A model generated the notes under the pieces. That model searched no databases and was not told the DNA's origin. It saw only the letters and a list, made by a program, of their open reading frames with translations. The position numbers were made by a program, and so were the translations under genes. From Psychrobacter pasteurii (GTDB lineage Bacteria; Pseudomonadota; Gammaproteobacteria; Pseudomonadales; Moraxellaceae), in assembly GCF_900162815.1 (NCBI RefSeq), contig NZ_FUGD01000052.1, positions 1 to 34,337 on the forward strand: 34,337 nt of DNA, written 5' to 3'. Shown here piece by piece: positions 8,617-13,266 of this stretch; position 1 is the stretch's first letter; each line of letters opens with the position of its first letter.

Positions 8617-9726
8617 CTACAAGCCAAACAAATCAGGCTGAGTGTTTAGGTCATCTAGACTGGTAAGATTGGAGTAGGTGACCCCGACCAAACGAATGGG
8701 CAGATGACGCGGGGCATCGGCGAGCAGTTTTTGTAGCCAATAATGTGCAGATTCGGCAGTAGGAAATGGCGTGTTCAAGGTATGTGAACGGGTAATCTGA
8801 GTAAAGTCAGCGTATTTTATTTTCAGAGTAATGGTATGGCCACGCCGTCCTTTTTTGGTCAGCTGCTCAAAAGCATCAGCGTTTTGTTCAAATATTTGCA
8901 CTAACAGGCTTTCAGTATCGCTCAAGTTATCGCGGAAGGTAGTCTCTGAGCCGACTGATTTGTGTTTTCGTTCGGCTTTGACCGGTCGTGTGTCATTACC
9001 GTGGGCAATTTCGGAATAAAAGCGGCCGCGTTTGCCAAACTCATATTCTAAGGTGTCCACCGGCGTTGCGCGCAAATCTGCGCCAGTGTAAATACCCATT
9101 TCATGCAGGCGCTTGGCGGTGGCCTTGCCGATACCGTGGAAGCGCTCGATAGGGAGTGTGGCAATAAAGGCATCGGCCTGATCGGGAGTGATGACGGCAA
9201 TGCCATTGGGTTTGTTAATGTCAGAGGCAATCTTGGCGAGCATTTTGTTAAAAGACACACCGGCTGAAGCGCGCAGTTGGGTCTGCTCATAAATTTGTGC
9301 CCGTAGCCAGTTTGCCATCAATGTGGCCGAGCCGTGATGTTCTTTAATCCCAGTGACATCCAGATAGGCCTCATCGAGTGATAACGGCTCGACCAAATCG
9401 GTCAGACTGAGCATAATCTCGCGGATTTGTTGACTGACCTGACGATACACCTCAAAGCGGGGACGTACGAATATCGCCTCAGGACAGCGCCGTTTTGCCT
9501 CATAGCAAGACATGGCCGAGCGCACGCCAAATTTGCGAATCTCATAACTGGCAGCAGCCACCACACCGCGGCCGCTGGGGTCACCGCCGACCACCAACGG
9601 CTTACCGCGCAGCTGTGGGTTATCACGCTGCTCGACACTGGCATAAAACGCATCCATATCTAGATGAATGATCTTGCGCTGCGGTTGGGTGTCTTGGATT
9701 AGGCTTTTGATAGTGGACTGGCTCAT
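8617..9726 (-). CDS. dinB: DNA polymerase IV (Y-family, translesion)
   Basis: The 369-residue Y-family polymerase carries HLDMDAFYASVE (metal ligand Asp23, likely steric-gate residue Tyr28), SLDEAYLDVTG (Asp118-Glu119), SAGVSFNKMLAKIASD, the HhH stretch FHGIGKATAKRLHEMG and a little-finger domain. It ends in QPDLFGL, a clear beta-clamp-binding peptide. The enzyme bypasses lesions at stalled forks. I see no LexA-type box upstream, in line with the lack of classical LexA in Moraxellaceae. It is read away from the AT-rich Nudix/helicase operon. Confidence 0.96.
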   Translation of the reverse strand: MSQSTIKSLIQDTQPQRKIIHLDMDAFYASVEQRDNPQLRGKPLVVGGDPSGRGVVAAASYEIRKFGVRSAMSCYEAKRRCPEAIFVRPRFEVYRQVSQQIREIMLSLTDLVEPLSLDEAYLDVTGIKEHHGSATLMANWLRAQIYEQTQLRASAGVSFNKMLAKIASDINKPNGIAVITPDQADAFIATLPIERFHGIGKATAKRLHEMGIYTGADLRATPVDTLEYEFGKRGRFYSEIAHGNDTRPVKAERKHKSVGSETTFRDNLSDTESLLVQIFEQNADAFEQLTKKGRRGHTITLKIKYADFTQITRSHTLNTPFPTAESAHYWLQKLLADAPRHLPIRLVGVTYSNLTSLDDLNTQPDLFGL

Positions 9727-9895: not shown

Positions 9896-9920
9896 TTGAC
9901 AGTCATTTAATGCTTATAAT
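9896..9920 (+). promoter_or_regulatory. Possible promoter of the Nudix/helicase operon
   Basis: A perfect TATAAT lies at 9915-9920 in very AT-rich DNA 56 bases before the Nudix ATG. A perfect TTGACA at 9896-9901 is only 13 bases away, too close for a standard promoter, so the pairing is doubtful even though the -10 is good. Confidence 0.35.
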
Positions 9921-9975
9921 ACATATAGAATAATACTTAAAGGTGTTGATTAAAACAATTAGGAGTTTGAACTTA

Positions 9976-10377
9976 ATGAAACAACTGAAAGTAGCGGCGG
10001 CAATTATTATAAATAACGGTAAAATACTTTGTGTCCAAAGAGGGCTTAATAAATTTGACTATATTTCAGAAAAGTTTGAATTTCCTGGAGGAAAGATTGA
10101 AGCAGGCGAATTGCCATCAGATACGGTAGTCAGAGAGATTCATGAAGAGTTAGAAATGAATATTGCTGTTGAACAAGACTTTTTAACTGTTAATCATGAG
10201 TACCCAGACTTTAAGATTCAAATGCACTCTTTTATCTGCTCTACGCCAACGAGAGAGCTTGAGTTATCAGAACACATCTCATTTAAATGGCTAGATGTTA
10301 GTGAGCTTTGGGACTTAGATTGGGCTGCGGCTGATGTTCCTATTGTTGATAAGCTGATTAAGGAATTAGACCAATGA
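9976..10377 (+). CDS. Nudix hydrolase (MutT-like NTP pyrophosphohydrolase)
   Basis: The ATG at 9976 follows AGGAG with 10 bases between; a longer frame from 9943 lacks this. The 133-residue product is one Nudix domain: the box is complete at residues 39-59 (Gly39, Glu45, Arg53-Glu54, Glu57-Glu58), within FEFPGGKIEAGE and REIHEELEM. The size and the N-terminal IIINNGKILCVQRG fit MutT/NudG-type enzymes, which hydrolyse damaged or modified nucleoside triphosphates to monophosphates. The true substrate cannot be told. Its stop overlaps the start of the helicase gene (ATGA), so the two are translationally coupled. Base composition is AT-rich like its partner, unlike the urease genes. Confidence 0.88.
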   Translation: MKQLKVAAAIIINNGKILCVQRGLNKFDYISEKFEFPGGKIEAGELPSDTVVREIHEELEMNIAVEQDFLTVNHEYPDFKIQMHSFICSTPTRELELSEHISFKWLDVSELWDLDWAAADVPIVDKLIKELDQ

Positions 10378-13214
10378 CTGAGGCCATATCTCTTAATCAA
10401 AGCCTGAAAAAGAGCTTTATTGACAAACATTATAATGCTAATAAAAATTATCAGGCTGCTTTACTGACCAATGATAGAAAAGAAGGTAAGAAGTTTTTAT
10501 CTGCCTTATTAAAGGAGTTAAATGGCTGTGATGAGTTTTATATTTCTGTCGCTTTCGTGACAAATAGTGGTGTCGCAACCATTATTAATTGTCTGCAAGA
10601 GCTTGAGAAAAGAAACGTTAAAGGAACACTGCTTGTTTCACAATACTTAAACTTTACCCAGCCTGATGCGTTAAAAAAGTTGTCCAAGTTTAAGAATATT
10701 GTTCTAAAAATTGCGACCAATAACTTCCACTCAAAAGGTTATTTGTTTAAACACGGTCGTACAAACAACGTCATTATTGGCAGTAGTAACCTTACGGCAA
10801 GTGCTCTTTGTTCCAATAAAGAATGGAATCTAAAAGTTTCAACCACTGATGATGGACTGCTGTACGAGCAGGTTATTAGTGAATTTGATAAAGAGCTTGC
10901 GATAGCGAAAGATGTTACGCCTGACTTTATTCAAGAGTATTCACAGATTTGGAATAGAGCAAAGCTACTCAGAGAACAGGTTAAGGTTGCAGCGGAAAAG
11001 GTCATACCTAAGTCAGTCACGCCAAATCAAATGCAACAGGAAGCTTTAAAAAACCTAAGTGATTCACGCAAACAAGGTAAGAGTAAAGCGCTTATTATCT
11101 CTGCAACGGGGACAGGTAAAACTTACTTATCGGCTTTTGATGTACAGCAATATCAGCCCAAGAAGTTCTTATTCATTGTGCATAGAAGAACGATTGCCGA
11201 AGAGGCAATGCGAACTTTTAAAAGCTTATTAGACCCTAAAATATCTATGGGCTTGTTCTCAGGTCAAGACAAAGAGACCGAGTGTGACTATCTGTTTTCG
11301 ACTGTGCAAACCATATCAAAACAAGAGAACTTAGATCTATTTAGTCCTGAGCACTTTGACTACATCGTGATTGATGAAACGCACAGAGCAGGCGCGCAAT
11401 CATACAAGGCGATACTAGACCACTTCAATCCTGGATTCTTACTAGGAATGACAGCGACACCAGAGCGTACAGATGGGGCCAATATCTTTGAGCTATTTAG
11501 TTACAATCTTGCTTATGAGATTAGACTGCATCGTGCGCTAGATGAAGGCATGCTATCGCCGTTTCATTATTATGGAGTAACAGATATTACCGTTAATAAT
11601 GAAGTTATTGATGAGCATTCCGACTTTAACAAACTGACTAGCAATGAGAGAGTGAACCATATCATTGCCAAATCCAAATTTTATGGTACCGACTCTGGAG
11701 AAGTCAGAGGTCTGGTATTTTGCTCGACTAATAAAATTTCAGCCCAACTTGCCGATGAGTTTAACAGGCAGGGCTATCCTTCTATCGCTTTATCAGGTGC
11801 AAGCTCAGAGAGTGATAGGCTAGAGGCGATTCGACGATTAGAAAGTAAAAATAGTGACAAGATTGACTATATTTTTACGGTAGATATTTTTAATGAAGGT
11901 ATCGACATACCGAGCGTGAATCAAATTATCATGCTAAGACCGACTCAGTCCGCCATTATCTTTGTGCAGCAATTAGGCCGAGGTTTGAGAAAGGCAGAGG
12001 GTAAAGATTATTTAACGGTTATCGACTTTATAGGCAACTATTCTAATAACTATTTGGTGCCAATTGCTTTGTATGGTGATCGTTCATTTAACAAAGATAC
12101 CATTCGAAAACTGATTCGTAGTGGCAGTGACTTAATTCCAGGTGCATCGACTGTTAATTTTGACGAGATAGCTCGAGAAAAGATTTTTGAATCTATCAAA
12201 AATGCGAATATGCAAAAGTTGGCGGACTTAAAAAAGGACTACGAGGACCTAAAACATAAGACGGGTACAATCCCAATGATGATGGATTTCATCAAGTACG
12301 GCTCAAGAGACCCGTGGTTATTCGCGTCATATTCAAAGTCTTATTTAAATTTCGTTAATCGAGTTGAAGATGATTATCAAGACACAGTTTCACCAGATTT
12401 AAAGACACTTCTAGAACTGTTTACGCTTAATATCAATAATGGCAAGCGTGTTGAGGAAAGTCTATTACTACGACAATTGACTGAAGAAGATAGACTACAC
12501 AAAGACGATTTTATCAGTGAAATAAAAAGCACGTATGGCTATTTTATTGATGATAAGACCATTGAATCACTGCTAATTAATATTAACTTTAACTTCATCA
12601 AAAAAGACTATGACAATATCAGGCTAGAAGATGATGTCTTTAGTTTAGGTGAAAACTTAAAAACAGCATTAGCAAATAATACGTTTAAGCTATTTTTTGT
12701 TGATTCGATTGAATATTCCATTGCTACTTTTAATGCCATTTTTCCTAAAATGGAGTACGTTAATGGTCTACTTAGATATCACAAATACAGCAGGAAGGAT
12801 GTTTGCCGATTATTGAACTGGGAACAAGATATCAGTAGTACCGTTTACGGCTATAGAACAAGGAATGAGGTCACGCCTTGCTTCGTTACCTACCATAAAG
12901 CAGACGAGTTAGAAGGTGATATTAATTACAACGACCACTTTATCAATCCTTCTGAGTTTGCTTGGGAATCACGCTCAAACAGAAAGCTTAGCAGTGCGGA
13001 GATTAAGAACGTCATCGACTCTAAGCGAATACTTTTGTTTGTCAAAAAAGAAGATGGTGAAGGCACAGACTTTTATTATTTAGGTGACGTTGCTATCGAG
13101 CCTGATTCGATTGAGCAAGGGGAGACTGACAAAGGACAGCCAGTCGTCCATTTCAGATTCCTGCTCGATAAGCCAGTAGAAGACTCGCTTTATGATTACT
13201 TGATTCAGGAATAA
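10374..13214 (+). CDS. PLD-nuclease / SF2 helicase / DUF3427 fusion protein
   Basis: The 946-residue protein has three parts. Residues about 30-190 are a phospholipase-D-type nuclease domain with one catalytic motif, His119-x-Lys121 (FHSKGYLF) and IIGSSNLTASAL (Asn139), as in helicase-linked PLD nucleases that dimerise. Residues about 215-560 are a superfamily-2 helicase: Walker A SATGTGKT (Lys249), motif II DETH (334-337), motif III MTATPERTDG, motif V FNEGIDIPSV, motif VI QQLGRGLRK. Residues about 600-946 fit DUF3427, including YSRKDVCRLLNW. All catalytic motifs look intact. It overlaps the Nudix gene by 4 bases. Such proteins are usually annotated as type III-restriction-like helicases; a DNA- or RNA-targeting defence role is inferred, not shown. 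Confidence 0.88.
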   Translation: MTEAISLNQSLKKSFIDKHYNANKNYQAALLTNDRKEGKKFLSALLKELNGCDEFYISVAFVTNSGVATIINCLQELEKRNVKGTLLVSQYLNFTQPDALKKLSKFKNIVLKIATNNFHSKGYLFKHGRTNNVIIGSSNLTASALCSNKEWNLKVSTTDDGLLYEQVISEFDKELAIAKDVTPDFIQEYSQIWNRAKLLREQVKVAAEKVIPKSVTPNQMQQEALKNLSDSRKQGKSKALIISATGTGKTYLSAFDVQQYQPKKFLFIVHRRTIAEEAMRTFKSLLDPKISMGLFSGQDKETECDYLFSTVQTISKQENLDLFSPEHFDYIVIDETHRAGAQSYKAILDHFNPGFLLGMTATPERTDGANIFELFSYNLAYEIRLHRALDEGMLSPFHYYGVTDITVNNEVIDEHSDFNKLTSNERVNHIIAKSKFYGTDSGEVRGLVFCSTNKISAQLADEFNRQGYPSIALSGASSESDRLEAIRRLESKNSDKIDYIFTVDIFNEGIDIPSVNQIIMLRPTQSAIIFVQQLGRGLRKAEGKDYLTVIDFIGNYSNNYLVPIALYGDRSFNKDTIRKLIRSGSDLIPGASTVNFDEIAREKIFESIKNANMQKLADLKKDYEDLKHKTGTIPMMMDFIKYGSRDPWLFASYSKSYLNFVNRVEDDYQDTVSPDLKTLLELFTLNINNGKRVEESLLLRQLTEEDRLHKDDFISEIKSTYGYFIDDKTIESLLININFNFIKKDYDNIRLEDDVFSLGENLKTALANNTFKLFFVDSIEYSIATFNAIFPKMEYVNGLLRYHKYSRKDVCRLLNWEQDISSTVYGYRTRNEVTPCFVTYHKADELEGDINYNDHFINPSEFAWESRSNRKLSSAEIKNVIDSKRILLFVKKEDGEGTDFYYLGDVAIEPDSIEQGETDKGQPVVHFRFLLDKPVEDSLYDYLIQE

Positions 13215-13235
13215 ATTCTTTATTAGTTAAGTTAA

Positions 13236-13266
13236 TAAACAAGCCCCTATCAAAGGGGCTTGTTTA
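13236..13266. terminator. Hairpin between helicase gene and hupE/ureJ
   Basis: A perfect 12-bp stem (13236-13247 / 13255-13266, TAAACAAGCCCC and complement) lies 21 bases after the helicase stop, between converging genes. It is symmetric enough to serve both strands. The T-run is short and interrupted. Confidence 0.75.

Follow-up and report, generated by a model that had tools for sequence, protein, structure and literature searches.

We analysed a stretch of 34,337 nucleotides from Psychrobacter pasteurii (contig NZ_FUGD01000052.1, positions 1 to 34,337; the window), in which a two-gene operon encodes a small Nudix hydrolase and a 946-residue nuclease-helicase. Judged by its sequence, the large protein is a SauUSI-type restriction enzyme, a member of a known family with a solved structure, and by analogy with SauUSI it very likely cuts DNA that contains 5-methylcytosine (5mC) or 5-hydroxymethylcytosine (5hmC). 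The SauUSI-Nudix partnership is real and wide, and it is conserved as a unit in distant bacteria. We consider it probable that the operon is a SauUSI-type type IV restriction unit with a nucleotide-pool arm, the Nudix enzyme removing 5-modified deoxycytidine triphosphate (dCTP). The Nudix would then exert precursor control over the modification that the nuclease targets, a proposal that the comparison with assayed relatives leaves well supported but unproven. A first-pass annotation of the window had described the operon as a candidate defence system; its observation is confirmed and its interpretation is partly supported.

The large open reading frame (10374..13214, plus strand) was matched by the PADLOC model mREase_IV (PDLC03658) with 731 bits across residues 7-944, and by PDB entry 7CLG with 713 bits across residues 7-943 (937 residues). 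7CLG is catalogued as a putative helicase (953 residues). We take it to be SauUSI, and the numbering bears this out, since the residues that the SauUSI paper names have identical numbers in 7CLG. A passage in that paper describes SauUSI as a dimer built of a PLD nuclease, a superfamily 2 (SF2) ATPase, a coupler and an SRA-fold target domain, which recognizes S5mCNGS containing either 5mC or 5hmC, translocates along the DNA and shreds it between sites (PMC7913695). The same order of PLD, SF2 ATPase, coupler and SRA is found here in one chain, where the Pfam matches are PLDc_2, ResIII/Helicase_C and DUF3427. The N-terminal PLD nuclease domain (10374..10943, plus strand; PLDc_2, RE_NgoFVII and the SauUSI alignment), whose limit was taken from SauUSI residues 1-191 (PMC7913695), contains H119-x-K121 (10728-10736, plus strand), which lines up with the catalytic H-x-K of the SauUSI PLD domain. 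The SF2 helicase-like ATPase/translocase follows (11010..12173, plus strand; ResIII at residues 215-365, Helicase_C at 445-539). The first-pass annotation had pointed to the His-Lys pair and to the SF2 motifs, and both hold up in the alignment of 16 relatives, in which H119-x-K121, the Walker K249, D334-E335-x-H337 and Q533-x-x-R536 are invariant. The C-terminal part of DUF3427 (12774..13205, plus strand) has as its counterpart in the SauUSI alignment the target recognition domain with the SRA fold. Its pocket residues Y827, F837, V838, D854 and W864 correspond in the alignment to SauUSI Y831, F841, I842, D858 and W868, and all five are invariant among the 16 relatives; the inserted residue Met829 of SauUSI is Tyr825 here. 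Since the pocket residues correspond to those of SauUSI and do not vary among relatives, DUF3427 in this protein is most likely the coupler part together with a modified-cytosine reader.

Many of the listed relatives of the nuclease (P0203-P0240; the named ones are from Bacteroidota) carry a Peptidase_S24 (LexA-like) domain, which in one relative (L038:5977-9360) is C-terminal. This domain hints at a DNA-damage-linked control of the nuclease by self-cleavage.

The Nudix hydrolase (9976..10377, plus strand; PF00293/PF14815, PDC-S07 and 3GWY) is predicted to be a 5-methyl-/5-hydroxymethyl-dCTP pyrophosphatase. In the PADLOC search, a check that the first-pass annotation had proposed, it matched the model PDC-S07 with 153.6 bits, and the model spans nearly the whole Nudix. 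The closest solved relative is PDB 3GWY (Q5LBB1_BACFN from B. fragilis; 125 bits, 49% identity), which was also the best fold match of the AlphaFold model of the Nudix (predicted local distance difference test score, pLDDT, 90); the fifth fold match was a complex of MutT2 with 5-methyl-dCTP. The Nudix box had been called complete. Its catalytic residues are indeed present, whereas the final Gly is replaced by Glu60 (Asp in 3GWY). Q5LBB1 has been assayed against a library of 74 compounds, and the reported kcat/Km values were 6.7e6 for 5-Me-CTP, 4.8e6 for 5-Me-dCTP, 4.4e6 for 5-MeOH-dCTP (which we equate with 5-hydroxymethyl-dCTP) and 8.5e4 for 5-OH-dCTP, with mainly alpha-beta cleavage and release of pyrophosphate (PMC5158307). 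The best deoxy substrates in that source, 5-methyl-dCTP and 5-hydroxymethyl-dCTP, bear both of the modifications recognized by SauUSI in DNA. A Nudix tree of 159 tips was rooted on MutT and contains the window protein, NudG and MutT twice each; in it, 3GWY nests in a 100-tip clade supported at 0.746, itself within a clade of 104 tips (0.933). The 100-tip clade is made up of 84 of the 103 SauUSI partners, 13 partners of McrA-like nucleases, one partner of a sister or partial nuclease, 3GWY and the window Nudix. The window Nudix is probably a 5-modified-dCTP pyrophosphatase of the Q5LBB1/NudG type, and the earlier suggestion that it clears modified nucleotides is the best-supported reading.

The regularity of the pairing was surveyed in four sets of genomes, as the first-pass annotation had recommended. 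In the genus the nuclease is accessory, being present in 10 of 105 genomes, and the Nudix gene lies directly 5' of it in 9/9 unbroken loci examined (a second copy in G078 was left out). A set from named genomes comprised the 80 nearest, that is best-scoring and not random, loci, 77 of which had enough upstream DNA; a Nudix gene was present in 75 of these, upstream on the same strand in 73 and convergent downstream in two. An even draw of 296 Bacteroidota genomes gave eight nuclease loci above 700 bits, all with Nudix, and another even draw, of 329 Bacillota genomes, gave the nuclease in 14, with Nudix in 12. Each draw counts one centre genome (these are G502 and G519) picked for holding the nuclease, and with these removed the counts are 7/7 and 11/13. 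The sets overlap: two of the 80 loci (L080 and L086) are genus loci again, and the draw genomes G502, G503, G524, G519 and G528 repeat loci of the 80-locus set. In Bacillota the Nudix gene was upstream in five cases, downstream on the same strand in two and convergent in five, and this changing arrangement argues against a single fixed operon that was simply inherited. The Nudix gene also lies directly 5' of the SauUSI gene, or of its frame-broken copy, in two S. aureus records, which are filed as plasmid and phage and are probably pieces of chromosome. Distances in the Nudix and nuclease trees were correlated (Spearman 0.773, 98 pairs, 0/999 permutations as high), a correlation that is confounded by shared ancestry and only supportive. 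Both of the simpler readings fall on these counts: the Nudix as a chance neighbour is ruled out by the genus, nearest-relative, Bacteroidota and Bacillota surveys, and a core gene by the 10/105 occurrence of the nuclease. Two other arrangements were observed in passing. In a Ruminococcaceae metagenome-assembled genome (L136, from the genome of L092) two Nudix genes flank one SauUSI gene. In two lactobacillus loci (L119 and L124) a gene for a MazG-like pyrophosphohydrolase lies behind that of the nuclease; in the Lactiplantibacillus one (L119:6877-8957) the SauUSI gene is followed by the MazG-like gene and a GIY-YIG/SLFN helicase gene.

The Nudix pairing reaches other nucleases of the 5mC-reader type, though not regularly. 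At one locus (L125) a related Nudix gene is followed by an SLFN-type helicase gene and an SRA-HNH nuclease gene near TagI (6GHS, 6e-66), and at another (L208) it lies behind an SRA-HNH gene with overlapping frames. Viral contigs yielded 13 loci with a 3GWY-like Nudix; these are close relatives and were counted as one group. In 11 of them the gene that overlaps the Nudix frame codes for an intact HNH protein; in one this gene is broken, and in one the contig ends. The HNH part, tested for L271, is nearest to E. coli McrA (6GHC, 4e-17), and two of the five viral McrA-like proteins scanned gave a weak SRA match (about 9e-5, below the Pfam cut-off). The AlphaFold model of a viral-contig McrA-like protein, with a pLDDT of 40.6, was not used. 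Among nine further McrA-like groups (six plasmid loci, from 45 records matched, and three viral loci), the Nudix gene was directly 5' of the McrA-like gene in two, one on a plasmid of Priestia (L314) and one on a viral contig (L309), and the other seven groups were without it. McrA and SauUSI are both listed as active on 5mC and 5hmC (a passage in PMC3874153), and TagI is described as cutting DNA with either modification (a passage in PMC12707154). It is conceivable, and we put it forward as somewhat less than probable, that bacteria and phage-like elements have repeatedly provided diverse 5mC/5hmC readers (SauUSI, some TagI-like SRA-HNH and some McrA-like HNH nucleases, and some DUF3427 sisters) with a dedicated 5-modified-dCTP pyrophosphatase, giving a general two-layer immunity at precursor and polymer in which the Nudix would also serve the self-protection that is otherwise missing from a restriction system with no methylase. 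A related Nudix was also seen fused to an SLFN-group-3 helicase (L183:4128-6584/L209) or adjoining one (L131, L285 and L125), and two of these helicases match PADLOC PDC-S41. Nudix fusions had been suspected in the Tepidibacter and Janthinobacterium nucleases, in which no Nudix was found.

In the mechanism that we favour, the large protein would bind 5mC or 5hmC through its SRA domain, translocate at the expense of ATP and cut with a PLD dimer, in the manner of SauUSI. The Nudix would hydrolyse 5-methyl-dCTP and 5-hydroxymethyl-dCTP to the monophosphate and pyrophosphate, as Q5LBB1/3GWY does. The 5-modified dCTP could arise from shredded modified DNA and salvage, or from the enzymes of the phage itself, and a host polymerase that used it would turn the host chromosome into a target. 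A type IV enzyme has no protective methylase, so the host is safe only as long as its own DNA has no modified cytosine at target sites; no PF00145 match was found in the own genome (229 contigs), the search being confined to this one methyltransferase family. The preferred purpose of the Nudix would therefore be self-protection, by keeping 5-modified bases out of the chromosome. Removal of 5-modified dCTP would also starve phages that build modified DNA, and for this reason self-protection and attack on the phage may hold together. SauUSI alone is reported to suffice for restriction, in vitro as well as in E. coli that carries the cloned gene (a passage in PMC3874153), which makes it unlikely that the Nudix is part of the cutting step and suggests that it has another job. 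We infer both the existence of the 5-modified dCTP pool and the benefit of the Nudix.

Several observations weigh against this mechanism. A pool of 5-methyl-dCTP in a bacterium free of such phages is an assumption, and cloned SauUSI is active in E. coli in the absence of this Nudix, though NudG is present there. At 49% identity the specificity of the Nudix is not fixed by its sequence. Support along the tree path to 3GWY ranges from 0.30 to 0.93, and 19 of the 103 partners fall outside the 3GWY clade, those of S. aureus among them and many coming from Bacillota; ten, again with those of S. aureus, lie outside even the 118-tip clade that holds NudG, and the substrate is less bracketed for these partners. 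The pairing itself has exceptions: L100 and L113 among the nearest relatives, L201 and L205 in Bacillota, and L121 in Fusobacterium are without Nudix. In the sister DUF3427 family (PADLOC PDLC03659, as shown for one member) a Nudix gene was found at 10/22 Bacteroidota loci and 0/15 Pseudomonadota loci, 10 further Bacteroidota places having no locus; in the 27 negatives the view extended over 0-669 bases downstream, and at L247 over 254 bases upstream. Outside these families a Nudix neighbour was present in one of seven SRA genes from 340 Bacteroidota genomes, in 3/10 groups of McrA-like nucleases examined, and not at the single plasmid SRA-HNH locus examined (six records matched). Conversely, of 30 Bacteroidota PDC-S07 loci retrieved, 13 have no nuclease of the 5mC-reader type next to them.

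Three other roles for the Nudix were weighed. It could be chiefly anti-phage, draining the 5-hydroxymethyl- or 5-methyl-dCTP of the phage while the nuclease cuts modified DNA, a combined attack on monomer and polymer. This would need the identical enzyme activity, monitoring of the 5-hydroxymethyl-dCTP pool has been floated as an idea (a passage in PMC12707154), and the Nudix/McrA-like pairs do sit on viral contigs. Yet a phage drained of its precursor would make unmodified DNA, invisible to the nuclease, so that the two arms would partly oppose each other, and we regard this role as unlikely. An ordinary MutT-like sanitiser of 8-oxo-dGTP or dCTP, limiting mutation near a DNA-damaging nuclease, appears quite improbable. 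Some sources do name relatives 8-oxo-dGTP diphosphatase or MutT, and the MutT model TIGR00586 scores 85.8 bits; this score is below the cut-off of 97.9, and at the position of MutT Asn119, which we take to have a role in specificity, the window protein has Asp120. The Asp is found in 103/103 SauUSI partners, 13/13 partners of sister or partial nucleases, 13/13 McrA-like partners, 4/4 SRA/SLFN-linked Nudix proteins and 19/22 others, the remaining three of the 22, E. coli MutT included, having Asn. Furthermore, the nearest assayed relative favours 5-modified dCTP, and the pairing recurs with different types of nuclease that have a modified-cytosine reader in common.

The least probable role, in our estimate, is that of a signal or trigger, in which the Nudix would sense 5-hydroxymethyl-dCTP or act on a cleavage nucleotide and thereby gate the nuclease. 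The tight operon with its ATGA overlap and the fusion of a related Nudix to an SLFN-type helicase would fit such a role, but SauUSI is reported to need no partner in vitro or cloned (PMC3874153), and a Nudix Pfam domain occurs in none of 120 nuclease relatives, among the matches listed.

The adjacency of SauUSI and Nudix genes is already in print in passing, and the nuclease itself is of a known kind. A figure legend in PMC7641849 names the small proteins adjoining SauUSI homologues in Streptococcus as MutT homologues, a passage in PMC12813430 gives PDC-S07 and type IV restriction-modification as co-localised in 23/23 for S. suis, and neither passage offers a mechanism. In the open literature, to which our search extended (most subscription papers are outside it), SauUSI and 'Nudix' came together in one paper, in passages of it that are unrelated, and no printed mechanism for the pairing was found. 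The earlier interpretation was incomplete as regards the parts, the nuclease being of the SauUSI family and the Nudix family being a PADLOC candidate, PDC-S07. We take PDC-S07 to be the name of a single-gene defence candidate. Matches of about 370 residues were set aside as presumably MutY-like. The model matches 14/14 control genomes at 1e-8, E. coli, which is one of them, at 1e-25. These control matches, together with its reported presence in 99% of Enterobacter genomes (a passage in PMC12851794), indicate that PDC-S07 is not a defence marker by itself.

The layout of the locus agrees with the first-pass annotation in most respects. The Nudix frame has 133 residues counted from its ATG, and an in-frame GTG upstream of it, at 9943, is open as well. 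Its stop overlaps the start of the nuclease frame by the four bases ATGA (10374..10377, plus strand), as described earlier; the two genes are likely translationally coupled, and overlap or near contact of the frames is seen again in relatives. The hairpin said to end the operon is a real inverted repeat (13236..13266), which the terminator scan reported for the minus strand only. The operon lies, as stated earlier, between unrelated genes: the Pfam scan of the window places dinB and a hupE-like gene at its flanks, neither a defence gene, and the next gene beyond is presumably ureG-like. Enrichment in defence islands was not seen in the flanks examined: besides these flanks, 10 flanking proteins from six other genus loci gave one strong PADLOC match (mads_3, 169 bits), which sits beside an outer-membrane efflux gene, and otherwise weak matches or none. 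In G046, the tenth genus genome with the nuclease, this operon occupies the same dinB-hupE site, but its nuclease gene is broken by a transposase-bearing insert (L291:4172-5358), which carries a gene for an rve-type integrase. A comparison with empty sites in the 14 genus genomes having the hupE gene was uninformative: G000 and G046 carry the operon beside hupE, the contig of G039 stops there, and in the remaining 11 the similarity ends at the hupE stop, with dinB absent from the 1.5 kb seen. A dinB-like gene is near the operon in the window (8617-9726) and, in a different orientation, in G006 (L292:12443-13600). At two genus loci (L295:11452-12522 and L296:5823-6923) an HNH nuclease gene lies directly 5' of the Nudix gene, forming three-gene HNH-Nudix-SauUSI clusters.

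The usual picture of a type IV enzyme is that of a nuclease with no protective partner. If the proposed mechanism is true, a conserved pool-cleaning partner would explain how the host tolerates an enzyme that attacks any suitable 5mC/5hmC site in the host DNA, nucleotide-pool control would be linked to the restriction of modified phages, and a function would be at hand for the widespread, unnamed PDC-S07 and for the S. aureus structure 5X1X, which is labelled MutT.

Compared with SauUSI, the large protein shares the domains end to end, the catalytic HxK and the SF2 motifs, and in five of six compared positions its reader is identical or conservatively replaced, the sixth being Tyr825 for Met829; the overall identity is about 40%, and the two S. 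aureus records have the Nudix gene directly 5' as well. The Nudix resembles Q5LBB1/3GWY in identity and as the top fold match, and 3GWY nests among SauUSI partners; Q5LBB1 was compared as a protein, its own gene neighbourhood having been sought and not found. E. coli NudG (Orf135) and MutT have the same fold at 32% and 34% identity, respectively. NudG, for which a table in PMC5158307 gives 5-methyl-dCTP as a likely physiological substrate, has the Ala-Asp motif in common with the window Nudix, whereas in MutT the Asp of this family is replaced by Asn. The nuclear magnetic resonance structure 5X1X was deposited under the title DNA mismatch repair protein MutT. In 127/127 compared residues it agrees with the Nudix encoded next to SauUSI in one S. 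aureus record (L120:3574-3975), and given this identity it appears to be a SauUSI partner; its place in the tree (L120/L122 tips) is outside the 3GWY clade.

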